A stretch of 33,639 bases of DNA from Alcaligenaceae bacterium (GTDB taxonomy: Bacteria; Pseudomonadota; Gammaproteobacteria; Burkholderiales; Burkholderiaceae_B), in contig CANCMG010000045.1 in the NCBI GenBank assembly GCA_947378965.1, positions 1 to 33,639 of the forward strand, read 5' to 3'. The notes beneath the pieces were generated by a model that did not search any database, was not told where the DNA came from, and saw only the letters and a list, made by a program, of their open reading frames with translations. The first letter of the stretch is position 1; each line of letters opens with the position of its first letter. The position numbers and the translations under genes are program-made. Shown here one piece after another: positions 10,010 through 31,150 of the stretch.

Positions 10010-11284
10010 TCATAGCCGCAAATCTGACTGATCAGCAGGCACAATATATTTCAGATCATACAGGACGTGTTCAGGCTTACCCAATGCCCGCAGCGCCGGC
10101 GCGCCCAACTCGATAAATTGACGATGCGCGACGGCAACAATAATCGCATCGTACTGAGCCGCTAGCAATTCAGGCACAAGTGTCAGACCGTATTCGTGCT
10201 GAGCCTCTTGCGCAGAGACCCAAGGATCATGCACATCTACCTCAACGTTGTACTCGCGTAGTTCTTTAACGATATCCACCACACGGGTATTACGCAAATC
10301 GGGGCAGTTCTCTTTAAAAGCCAACCCCATTACCAACACGCGTGCGCCTTGCACCTGGATGCGTCGACGTGTCATCAGCTTCACGAGCTGAGAGACGACA
10401 TAACCGCCCATACCATCGTTTAAGCGCCGCCCTGCGAGGATAATCTCGGGGTGATAGCCAATCGATTGCGCTTTGTGTGTCAGATAATACGGATCGACAC
10501 CAATGCAATGCCCACCCACCAAGCCCGGCCGAAAGGGTAGAAAATTCCATTTCGTGCCAGCTGCTTTCAAGACAGCTTCAGTATCGATACCTAGCTTATT
10601 AAAAATCAGTGCCAATTCGTTGATTAAGGCAATATTGACATCACGTTGGGTGTTTTCAATCACCTTGGCCGCTTCGGCCACTCGGATACTGGGCGCACAA
10701 TGCGTGCCCGCCACAATGATTTCTCGGTAGATTTGATCCACGAGCGCAGCGATCTCGGGCGTCGAGCCCGAAGTCACTTTTTTTATCGTACTAACGCGAT
10801 GCTCTTTGTCACCGGGGTTGATGCGCTCTGGACTGTAGCCAGCGAAAAAATCTTTGTTAAAGACTAAGCCCGAGACTCGCTCAAGGACTGGCACGCAATC
10901 TTCTTCGGTGGCGCCGGGGTAGACCGTCGACTCGTAAATAACAATGTCGCCTTTTTTTAGCACTGCACCGATAGTTTCACTGGCTTTAATCAGCGGGGTG
11001 AGATCCGGGCGCTTATATTCGTCGATCGGTGTGGGCACTGTCACGATGAACACATTTGCGGCAATTAACTCGGCTCGGTCAGCCGTGCAGCGCAAGCCTG
11101 TGGCGCTAGCAAGCTCGGCGTCATCTACCTCAAGGGTGTGGTCATGCCCCTGCTGCAGGGCCTGTATGCGCGCCGAATTGATGTCAAAACCGAGAACCGA
11201 CCTTTTTTTAGCAAACTCGACTGCGAGGGGCAGGCCTACATAGCCCAATCCAACTACCGCAAGTTTGACGTCGTGAATCAGCAA
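10010..11284 (-). CDS. wbpO: UDP-N-acetyl-hexosamine 6-dehydrogenase (WbpO/TviB type)
   Basis: NAD-dependent four-electron oxidation of UDP-GlcNAc or UDP-GalNAc to the uronic acid, a precursor of acidic surface polysaccharide. I choose TTG 11284 (424 residues, [15 protein letters not shown]): GGAG (11294-11291) is six bases upstream and the start then matches family length; a GTG at 11311 would add nine residues. Seen: Rossmann motif GLGYVG (12-17), [49 protein letters not shown], and catalytic Cys260 in [12 protein letters not shown]. The C-terminus SDLRL resembles TviB. The next gene overlaps by four bases. No glycosyltransferase or polymerase gene lies alongside. Confidence 0.93.
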
Positions 11285-11504
11285 AATAGTCTCCGTGATA
11301 CCGGCAAGCACTTAGGTTAGCTAAGAGGCTTACAACTCAAAGACGCGATTTTAAACGCTAGGGCAGCGTTTTGTTGCTCGGCGCAAAAACTTTTTGATGA
11401 CTGCTCTGCTAGTTCGAGTCAGTGGCGCCAGCTAGCCGGTTTTAGCTCAGTCGCTCTCGGCCAGTGACTTGCCTGCACAAGAGCGCGCCCCATATTGGAC
11501 GCAC
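11285..11504. other. Leader region of the wbpO-wbpP operon, no gene
   Basis: 220 bp upstream of wbpO and downstream of the small-RNA terminator, so the wbpO promoter should be here; I cannot name it. Seen: a hairpin AAACGCT (11353-11359), AGCGTTT (11365-11371), and two short tRNA-like fragments back to back: AGTTCGAGTCAGTGGCGCCA at 11411-11430, like a T-arm and acceptor end, and GCCGGTTTTAGCTCAGT at 11435-11451, like a tRNA 5' end. Neither can be extended to a cloverleaf. Confidence 0.4.
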
Positions 11505-11505
11505 C

Positions 11506-11538
11506 AAAAAAGAGGCCAAGACCTTGCGGTCTTGGCCT
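11506..11538 (-). terminator. Strong Rho-independent terminator
   Basis: On the - strand, an 11-bp perfect stem AGGCCAAGACC (11538-11528), loop GCAA, GGTCTTGGCCT (11523-11513), is followed by CTTTTTT. It lies about 270 bp beyond the coq7 stop codon with no protein gene between, and fits the end of the candidate small RNA described next. Confidence 0.88.
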
Positions 11539-11640
11539 AAATCCACCAAAGGAGGAGGGTGGAGGAGACAATCGTGGCAAATTGAGGAGAAAATCTTTGC
11601 GTTGCTGCACTGCCTAGACGCTTGACTAACTCTGTATGCT
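11506..11640 (-). ncRNA. Candidate small RNA with repeated anti-Shine-Dalgarno motifs
   Basis: A minus-strand transcript ending at the strong terminator is proposed; the 5' end is only approximate. Reading 5'-3', it holds UUUUCUCCUCAA (11591-11580), then UCUCCUCC (11568-11561), then a hairpin with stem UCCACC/GGUGGA (11563-11558 with 11547-11542) whose ten-base loop is CUCCUCCUUU. That loop nearly repeats the 3' end of 16S rRNA (CACCUCCUUU), so it could pair with Shine-Dalgarno sequences of mRNAs. C/U-rich loops of this sort are known in regulatory RNAs of alphaproteobacteria (the CcsR RNAs with the CCUCCUCCC motif). A possible promoter is TTGACT (11681-11676) with GATAAC (11656-11651), 19 bp apart, which is long. 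It could alternatively be a long 3' end of the coq7 transcript. Confidence 0.55.
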
Positions 11641-11650
11641 TTGCCTGAAC

Positions 11651-11666
11651 GTTATCCTTTGATAAC
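11651..11666. repeat. Palindrome upstream of the candidate small RNA
   Basis: GTTATC (11651-11656), spacer CTTT, GATAAC (11661-11666): perfect 6-bp arms. It overlaps the suggested -10 box of the small RNA, where an operator would be expected, but may also be a simple hairpin. Confidence 0.5.
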
Positions 11667-11716
11667 CACTTCTTCAGTCAAAACACTTATGACTCAACTT
11701 CCATAAACAAATAGTA

Positions 11717-11793
11717 ATCTATTTTTTTGTGCGATGCAAGAAAATAGATCGAATCATGAATAAATATTTATTTTGTTGTTTTTGTGCATCGCA
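11717..11793. repeat. Nested inverted repeats downstream of coq7
   Basis: Three overlapping symmetric elements in AT-rich DNA: ATCTATTTT (11717-11725) with AAAATAGAT (11741-11749); TGCGATGCA (11730-11738) with TGCATCGCA (11785-11793); and a perfect 14-bp palindrome AATAAATATTTATT (11759-11772). They begin 15 bp after the coq7 stop. The alternative pairings are mutually exclusive in part, since the first element's loop contains one arm of the second. Confidence 0.7.
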
Positions 11794-11808
11794 ACAAGAT
11801 TTTGTTGT

Positions 11809-12495
11809 TTAAACGCGATATGCCGTCGCGGTCATCAGTTTGGACATCAATCGCATCACCCCTCGTACAGGCGCAGGCATCCCCACCGCCCCTGCTCGCT
11901 CGGCCGTCACGCGATGACCGATCTCGTCTTGTTTCATTTGCTCGACAATTTTTCTTGAACGGGTGTCACCTACTGGCAAGCGCTGCAAGTGATCTTCAAG
12001 ATGCGCCTCAACCTGGCGCTCGGTTTCGGCCATAAACCCCAAATTACGCGCCACACCGGCACGGGCGGCCAACACCCCCAACGTAAATGAACCGGCGTAC
12101 CAAAGTGGGTTCAACACGCTAGGCCGGCTGTCAAGCTCGCGCAGCCGTTGTTGGCACCAGGCCAGGTGATCGATTTCGTCGGCGGCGGCGCGATAAAACA
12201 GTGCGGCGCTTGCGGCGTCTTTGCTGGCTGCGGCCTGCCCTCTATAAAGAGCCTGCGCACAGACCTCACCCACATGATTGACGCGCATTAAGCCGGCCGC
12301 GTGTGTTTTCTCTGGCGCGGTTAAGGCGTCACCAACGTTGGGCTTAACTGCCCCAGCCGGGTTAGACCGAGCGGCCGCAGCTTGCCCCGCCAGTACCTGT
12401 AGTGCCACATCGACCTCAGCGATGAAGGGATCAAGCCAATGCTGGCGACGAGTCAAGTGCGAGGATCCAACTGAAACCGCTTGGGGGGTTGCCAT
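11809..12495 (-). CDS. coq7: 3-demethoxyubiquinol 3-hydroxylase (Coq7)
   Basis: Di-iron monooxygenase that performs a late ring hydroxylation in ubiquinone synthesis, as a peripheral membrane protein. I start it at ATG 12495 (228 residues) with AAGGT six bases upstream; an ATG at 12525 lacks a ribosome binding site. The ferritin-like four-helix ligand set is visible: Glu77 in RVNHVGE, ExxH Glu107/His110 in ADEIDHLAWC, a Glu in FMAETERQVEAH (about 157-165), and ExxH Glu191/His194 in QDEIGHR. The first 55 residues are variable, Ala-rich and probably disordered. Downstream lie AT-rich inverted repeats and then the small-RNA candidate. It is divergent from the OsmC-like gene. Confidence 0.95.
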   Translation of the reverse strand: MATPQAVSVGSSHLTRRQHWLDPFIAEVDVALQVLAGQAAAARSNPAGAVKPNVGDALTAPEKTHAAGLMRVNHVGEVCAQALYRGQAAASKDAASAALFYRAAADEIDHLAWCQQRLRELDSRPSVLNPLWYAGSFTLGVLAARAGVARNLGFMAETERQVEAHLEDHLQRLPVGDTRSRKIVEQMKQDEIGHRVTAERAGAVGMPAPVRGVMRLMSKLMTATAYRV

Positions 12496-12619
12496 ACATA
12501 ACCTTAAGGTGAGACCCGCCTCCATCTACGCGAGGAAGCTTTGACTTCAATTTTAAGCTCTAGCCAAGATTTTGCTTAAAACTTGATTATCATTCTGACT
12601 TAACTATTAAGGATTGGAC

Positions 12620-20982: not shown

Positions 20983-21041
20983 AAAGGGCGAACGGTTCAG
21001 CCACCCACGCCTGACGTGAGTGTTTGAACCAACGTTCGCCC
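20983..21041 (-). terminator. Expression-platform hairpin of the glycine riboswitch
   Basis: On the - strand GGGCGAAC (21041-21034), bulge GTT, GGTTCA (21030-21025) pairs with TGAACC (20999-20994) and GTTCGCCC (20993-20986), then CTTTGATTG. The outer 8-bp stem is perfect. The gcvT ribosome binding site lies outside it, which points to control of transcription, although the T-run is weak. A small internal hairpin CACG/CGTG is also present. Confidence 0.6.
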
Positions 21042-21267
21042 CTCTGTCCTTTTGCCTGAGAGTTGCCCTGCAAGACAGCAGGTGTGCACCTTCGGCGCCC
21101 GTTTTGGCCACAGGGCCGCGGGTCTCTCCAGAGTGTTGTGTTGTTGCACGCTTGTGTCACGGGCAACATTGCAGATTGCGGTATGGGAAGCCTGAGCGAT
21201 TCTGGGCGAATTGCGCCTTCGGCGGCAAACTAGGGCAACAATCGCGTCACCCGCTGCACTCTCCCGC
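21036..21267 (-). promoter_or_regulatory. Tandem glycine riboswitch upstream of gcvT
   Basis: Two glycine aptamers lie in series on the - strand. The first (about 21267-21178) shows GCGGGAGAG, the conserved core GCCGCCGAAGGCGCAA and CGCTCAGGC. The second (about 21133-21036) shows CTCTGGAGAGACC, GGCGCCGAAGGTGCA, CTCTCAGGCAAAAGGACAGAG. These are the GGAGAG, GCCGAAGG and CUCAGGCAAAAGGACAGA signatures of the family. Glycine binding normally switches on gcvTHP so that excess glycine is cleaved. The linker of about 45 bases is longer than usual, and the 3' part of aptamer 1 (CTTCCCATACCGC) is more diverged than that of aptamer 2. It begins 64 bp after the stop of the upstream flavoprotein gene. Confidence 0.95.
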
Positions 21268-21331
21268 AAACTGCGTTCACAGCGATGCCATCGTACCGCG
21301 AAACTACGACCTCGGACAACCCGCTCAGAAA

Positions 21332-31076: not shown

Positions 31077-31150
31077 TGGAGCGGGTGATGGGAATCGAAC
31101 CCACGCCTGAGGCTTGGGAAGCCGCCGTTCTGCCATTGAACTACACCCGC
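31077..31150 (-). tRNA. tRNA-Gly (anticodon CCC)
   Basis: 74 bases with encoded CCA. Acceptor stem GCGGGTG/CACCCGC, D-arm GTTC...GAAC, anticodon loop TTCCCAA (anticodon CCC, reading GGG), T-arm GTGGG-TTCGATT-CCCAT. One anticodon-stem pair, 28-42, is C-U (GCGGC against GCCTC), a mismatch. The 3' end lies three bases after the metG stop codon on the opposite strand. Confidence 0.95.

Follow-up and report, generated by a model that had tools for sequence, protein, structure and literature searches.

A predicted PhaR-controlled promoter at the gene of an S17-type (RF02278) small RNA in an Alcaligenaceae bacterium

The closest described relative of the RNA analysed here is the small RNA S17 of Bordetella pertussis, which is summarised below according to the relevant passages of PMC11722255. 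The S17 gene is located between a glycosyltransferase gene and coq7, and its mapped promoter consists of TTGCAT, a spacer of 17 bp and TACTAT, with an A as the start 7 bp downstream. RNase E converts the 190-nt long form, which survives an exonuclease requiring a 5' monophosphate, into a stable form of 67 nt (Hfq-dependent). The deletion of S17 raised 91 genes (92 according to the abstract), 70 of which are complementary to single-stranded sites of the RNA. The targets are rich in transporters, and for BP2158, which encodes a sigma-54 activator, direct repression was proven by compensatory mutations. S17L carries a frame of 32 residues, while S17S did not impair the exponential growth of E. 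coli. The level of S17 tracks the Bvg mode, and its authors postulate an unknown repressor.

Four RNAs of Burkholderia cenocepacia, ncS03, ncS05, ncS27 (bdhR1) and ncS62, belong to the same Rfam family and share the two-hairpin form (passages of PMC5688073 and PMC4603805). Like the RNA analysed here, they carry C/U sites directed against ribosome-binding sites; they differ in that several copies occur per genome and that three of the four are transcribed directly in the short form, and the same passages describe them as toxic upon overexpression. Three of the four have a common upstream motif, which is unnamed in the passages of PMC5688073 concerned, and glucose medium raises the three homologues measured there 4.3- to 8.0-fold. 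A review attributes slower growth on several substrates to NcS27 (PMC10987360, relevant section), and four related RNAs are mentioned for Herbaspirillum (PMC7011215, relevant section). NmsR of Neisseria meningitidis, as described in a passage of PMC5688073, likewise exposes two unpaired C/U stretches against ribosome-binding sites; it differs in its tandem copies and TCA-cycle targets, and it is set beside our RNA by description only. As regards regulation, MmgR of Sinorhizobium meliloti is reported to be linked to polyhydroxybutyrate (PHB) and negatively controlled by PhaR/AniA (Ceizel Borella 2018, as cited in a passage of PMC12542648), so this kind of circuit is already known. MmgR differs in belonging to another RNA family (described as r8s1) and another bacterial class, and it is reported to act on phasin genes.

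The window, i.e., the whole stretch of DNA that was analysed, comprises 33,639 nt of contig CANCMG010000045.1 of an Alcaligenaceae bacterium (GenBank assembly GCA_947378965.1). A preliminary description of this DNA had proposed a regulatory RNA at 11506..11640 that belonged to no recognised family. The Rfam search assigned it to a named one: the covariance model RF02278 matched the minus strand at 11570-11507 over its full length (1-64) with 68.1 bits against a cut-off of 50, and no other family reached its cut-off within 11480-11820. The conserved RNA is this shorter segment, and its promoter (11739-11711) lies outside the interval proposed. RF02278 bears the Rfam name 'Betaproteobacteria toxic small RNA', which derives from toxicity to E. 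coli upon overexpression. S17 and the window locus have in common the RF02278-type RNA, the coq7 neighbour, the promoter hexamers with their spacing and the terminator, and in both RNAs the 5' part is conserved and includes two C/U sites; their leaders differ in sequence and length. The window RNA almost certainly belongs to RF02278 and is the S17 orthologue, and the RNA itself is an already known family member, ordinary as such. The coordinates of the features are given in Table 1.

Table 1. Features of the small RNA locus and its surroundings in the window.
Feature	Position	Strand	Basis
UDP-sugar dehydrogenase gene, other flank	10010-11311		Pfam
Conserved short form of the small RNA (site 1, hairpin 1, terminator)	11507..11570	-	RF02278 match
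Intrinsic terminator, 11-bp stem, then CTTTTTT	11513..11538	-	Sequence and fold
Hairpin 1, 6 bp, loop holding the second C/U site	11542..11563	-	Fold and compensatory changes
5' leader of the predicted long form, with motif 1	11571..11704	-	Analogy with S17
Predicted sigma-70 promoter	11711..11739	-	Hexamers, spacing and start as in the mapped S17 promoter
Predicted PhaR operator A, over the -35 element, TTCTTGCATCGCACAAA	11726..11742	-	16/17 positions of the R. eutropha consensus
Predicted PhaR operator B, 55 bp upstream of A, TTGTTGCGATGCACAAA	11781..11797	-	17/17 positions of the R. eutropha consensus
coq7, conserved upstream neighbour	11809-12525	-	Pfam PF03232

The source genome contains a single RF02278 copy. 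The RNA was found in 234 of 250 genomes of the same family, while in the order-level survey of 399 genomes, matches reached E 0.001 in 244 and the cut-off in 144, with up to nine matches per genome. Both searches gave zero matches in 14 control genomes; in the single-genome copy search, run at a lax E of 1, weak matches appeared in 11 of the 14 controls, none of them above the cut-off. Among the 16 family genomes that lack the RNA, 13 lack PhaR as well. Small genomes lacking both are G007, G048, G078, G101, G121, G140, G155 and G170 (genus g8, 0.7-0.8 Mb) as well as G023 and G058 (g24, 1.6-1.7 Mb). Genus g34 (G034, G066; loci L123, L133, L139-L142) has 4-5 RF02278-like copies, and the four weaker ones examined (L139-L142) have a different hairpin loop and lack the PhaR core. 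A tandem pair of copies with starts about 0.4-0.5 kb apart occurs in seven genomes of genus g43: G043 (C14:15579-16176), G073, G166, G179, G190, G199 and G205.

The three CUCCUC motifs reported earlier for the minus strand are present at 11589-11584, 11567-11562 and 11557-11552. A segment of 38 nt thus holds three of the four occurrences of CTCCTC in the whole window; counted on both strands, these four compare with a shuffle mean of 8.7, so there is no overall excess. The perfect 6-bp hairpin with the third motif in its loop was likewise confirmed (TCCACC at 11563-11558 pairs with GGTGGA at 11547-11542 around a 10-nt C/U-rich loop), as was the terminator hairpin with its T6. The loop sequence is presumably a copy of the anti-Shine-Dalgarno tail of 16S rRNA. 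CcsR and the cuckoo RNAs of Alphaproteobacteria carry a C/U-rich anti-Shine-Dalgarno motif in a loop; the likeness to CcsR proposed before holds for the way of working and fails for family membership, these RNAs being from other hosts, distinct from the Rfam match of the window RNA and comparable to it by description only.

The 67-nt segment 11573-11507 folds with -29.7 kcal/mol (z -5.9), a value equalled by none of 200 shuffles. The covariation check suggested for the hairpin gave a positive result. Over 63 sequences, selected by us out of 109 distinct ones, the five outer pairs of hairpin 1 are formed in 98.4% of cells and the closing pair in 96.8%, and both sides have changed with pairing retained at four of the six pairs; as judged from this alignment, hairpin 1 is maintained through compensatory changes. 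In the terminator region, where the alignment is poor, 32.9% of cells are paired. Of 84 family loci, 72 have an identical 31-nt 5' part, as do 14 of the 53 loci from other families, while motif 1 (11589-11584) is present in only 8 of 136 loci (7/83 in the family, 1/53 in other families). As motif 1 is non-conserved and lies in the leader that would be cleaved off, the three-motif design is not upheld, even though the three motifs themselves exist.

The region between coq7 and the next open reading frame measures 497 nt, given a start of the latter at GTG 11311; the 524 bp stated previously requires a later start. Of the 38 family loci in the first set, 34 have a coq7 gene near the small RNA, and in the window this gene is on the same strand. 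Elsewhere in the window, Rfam detected tandem glycine riboswitch aptamers at 21034-21141 and 21169-21276 (minus strand; RF00504, 59.4 and 53.5 bits) and a tRNA gene at 31080-31150 (minus strand; RF00005, 66.9 bits).

The predicted promoter is composed of a -35 element TTGCAT at 11739-11734, a spacer of 17 bp and a -10 element TACTAT at 11716-11711, and the predicted start is the A at 11704, 7 bp past the -10 element as in S17. A generic promoter scan of the window did not pick up this promoter. By analogy with S17, a primary transcript of about 198 nt, from 11704 to the terminator, is predicted instead of the 100-140 nt suggested at first, and its leader is expected to be cut off by RNase E. 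For the window copy, we infer the promoter, the processing, the need for Hfq and the repression of targets from S17. An inverted repeat, GTTATC-AAAG-GATAAC, is present at about 11645-11660 (minus strand) within the predicted leader.

The promoter region contains two sites resembling published PhaR operators (Table 1). The PhaR site is given as YTKNTGCRNYGCANMAR for Ralstonia eutropha in a passage of PMC12849132, which also describes PhaR as capable of activation as well as repression. For Bradyrhizobium diazoefficiens, it is given as TGCRNYGCASMA (PMC6201568, relevant passages), where one site overlaps the -35 element of phaP4 and the phaP5 site reads TGCATCGCACAA, and for Herbaspirillum seropedicae as TGNTGCN3GCAA (PMC3206438, relevant passage). 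The phaP5 sequence given is a 12-mer that is identical in the window. Promoters of relatives have TTGC-R-N-Y-GCA over the -35 element, which gives the operator core TGCRNYGCA, and two cores 56-57 bp apart occur in 9 of the 16 other loci that have multiple cores. PhaR is encoded in the source genome as a 189-aa protein that matches both PF07879 and PF05233, and a phasin gene of this genome has a PhaR-type site upstream. A search of the genome with TTGCRNYGCAMMA gave 53 matches, some of which are one site counted on both strands, versus 18 with the backward pattern.

The conservation of the operator was assessed in 56 PhaR-positive family genomes with exactly one generic promoter, the operator itself not being required; they were drawn from 73 genomes, 59 of which had at least one generic promoter. 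These promoters read C-TTG-C-R-N-Y-GCA-N-M-A-R, with R in 54, Y in 56, G, C and A in 55 each, M in 56, A in 56 and the final R in 50 of 56. The spacer half-site GCA is thus 98% conserved, while in the nine spacer columns outside the consensus the commonest base accounts for 38-68%. At position K, all 56 promoters have C, contrary to the consensus.

The core TGCRNYGCA was further sought within 220 nt upstream of the small RNA. Among loci of PhaR-positive genomes it was present in 67 of 76 in the family and 47 of 67 in other families, and the loci of PhaR-negative genomes, i.e., genomes outside the 229 and 266 with a PF07879 match, had it in 0 of 4 (family) and 0 of 26 (other families). Counted by genome, this corresponds to 111 of 127 versus 0 of 29 (Fisher 2e-20, a value inflated by relatedness, which is uncorrected), with 16 of the 127 PhaR-positive genomes lacking the core in the loci examined. 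The reversed pattern occurred upstream in 0 of 176 loci, and the core occurred in 2 of 137 loci in a downstream control on an earlier set. The first searches contributed their best-scoring loci, to which we later added others so as to cover genera and PhaR-negative genomes; the PhaR-negative genomes are concentrated in few families. Loci L040 and L060 (unplaced) and L113 (23 nt upstream only) were dropped before counting, and G201 was left out, its RNA being at a contig start. Three drafts in which PhaR was not found and the operator is present (G193, G194 and G247) were set aside; counted as PhaR-negative, they would change the result to 3 of 32. G193 and G194 have their PHB synthase gene at or near a contig end, so the absence of phaR may be a gap, and G247 is a draft of 540 contigs without PHB synthase.

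Comparisons within genera were also made. In four genera the sole firm PhaR-negative genome examined lacked the operator, while PhaR-positive congeners had it in 4/4, 3/6, 6/6 and 5/6 cases (product of probabilities 0.005); two of these four PhaR-negative genomes, G119 (91% complete) and G186 (86%), are drafts, both without PHB synthase. Genus g51 gives no support, because the core is missing from PhaR-negative G257 and equally from PhaR-positive G387 and G567; in G539, the third PhaR-positive congener, it is far upstream. G057 has kept PHB synthase and lacks both PhaR and the operator. As to position, 74 of 129 operators are followed by a -10-like hexamer at exactly the distance of a -35/17-bp spacer, and in several relatives whose RNA seemingly starts at the short form the core is 33-34 nt upstream, in the expected place of the -35 element. 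A scan of named genomes with TTGCATCGCACAAAA-N8-TACTAT gave 30 places, including Achromobacter, Advenella, Bordetella hinzii and another Bordetella (B. pertussis is outside the list), and the small RNA follows 88-192 nt downstream in 30 of 30.

We consider with good confidence, on the strength of these sites and their distribution, that PhaR is a direct regulator of the RF02278 promoter, and the operator appears to be a strong and new addition to a known RNA. A literature search covering titles and the starts of abstracts gave no link between PhaR and RF02278 RNAs, with an earlier mention possible in Kimelman 2012, Sass 2019 on NcS27 and Ceizel Borella 2018. The word PhaR is absent from the main texts of PMC11722255, PMC5688073, PMC10987360 and PMC7011215; the 12 passages covered out of 17 in PMC9049629 on small RNAs or on PhaR binding hold no such link, PMC10888616 has zero small RNA terms and PMC11332829 has one, in its reference list.

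An unlikely alternative is a plain S17 orthologue without PhaR control, in which TTGC..GCA would belong to a strong promoter or be bound by a different regulator. It is favoured by the fact that TTG belongs to the -35 element and by the different promoter of most PhaR-negative loci: the generic pattern is missing in 19 of 30 of them versus 34 of 143 PhaR-positive loci, so the loss of the operator may be part of a wider promoter change. However, GCA stands in the spacer, where sigma-70 needs no fixed bases, and is nevertheless conserved; the degenerate positions track the PhaR consensus, a second full site is present upstream in the window, and operator and PhaR co-occur across the genomes compared.

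The remaining alternatives concern the RNA itself. As coq7 is just upstream on the same strand, the RNA might be a 3'-UTR fragment of its mRNA that has no promoter of its own; this is very improbable given the mapped S17 promoter, whose hexamers and spacing are kept in the window, and the resistance of the S17 long form to the exonuclease. Even less credit is due to a small peptide gene with a leader frame running into the RNA. Such a frame was described in S17L and one of 32 residues also occurs in locus L027, but an ATG frame across the junction of leader and RNA is present in 20 of 84 family loci, is thus not family-wide, and is absent from the window; a conserved leader peptide was rejected on these grounds. 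The idea of a new, unnamed family of three-motif anti-Shine-Dalgarno RNAs accounts for the three motifs that do occur, yet the full-length RF02278 match rules it out as far as the name is concerned and the rarity of motif 1 speaks against the design, which leaves it a negligible chance. The reading as an S17/RF02278 RNA with a PhaR-repressed promoter that is released by granules is, taken as a whole, likely.

According to this preferred reading, the sigma-70 promoter would give the transcript of about 198 nt, and RNase E would remove the leader to leave a stable form of about 65 nt with two single-stranded C/U sites. Together with Hfq, these sites would pair with ribosome-binding sites and block translation of mRNAs, many of which would serve the transport and breakdown of carbon compounds and amino acids. 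Binding to ribosome-binding sites of several mRNAs, which had been suggested for the window RNA from the outset, is published for S17 (PMC11722255, relevant passages), and by this analogy the window RNA very probably masks such sites. In the absence of PHB, PhaR would occupy the -35 element and the second site upstream, so that the promoter is repressed and the RNA low. Under carbon excess, PHB granules would titrate PhaR, the promoter would open, and the rising RNA would slow further uptake of substrates. That RF02278 RNAs act across Burkholderiales as a PHB-granule-gated brake on nutrient uptake is an extension that we favour with some reserve.

As for targets in the source genome, BP2158 has no evident orthologue there; five PF00158 matches were found, and the sole strong one (sigma-54 activator) adjoins an NtrB-like kinase gene. 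Start sites with GGAGGAG show no excess (9 versus 10 in the control). Three of the nine open a frame of at least 300 aa, and two of these resemble periplasmic solute-binding proteins by eye, which is suggestive only as to targets. The glucose induction of the Burkholderia homologues, the transporter targets of S17, the growth effect of NcS27 and the repressor postulated for S17 back the working model, being supporting but not decisive, while the dependence of S17 on the Bvg mode is left unaccounted for by PhaR alone.

If the model is true, the operator ties a very widespread small RNA of Burkholderiales to carbon storage. PhaR would then be the missing repressor of S17 and would account for the induction of the Burkholderia homologues by glucose, and the pair would be a separate counterpart, on an unrelated RNA, to the rhizobial PhaR-MmgR pair. 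The PhaR link also offers a testable answer to the question of why genomes without PhaR are often without the RNA.
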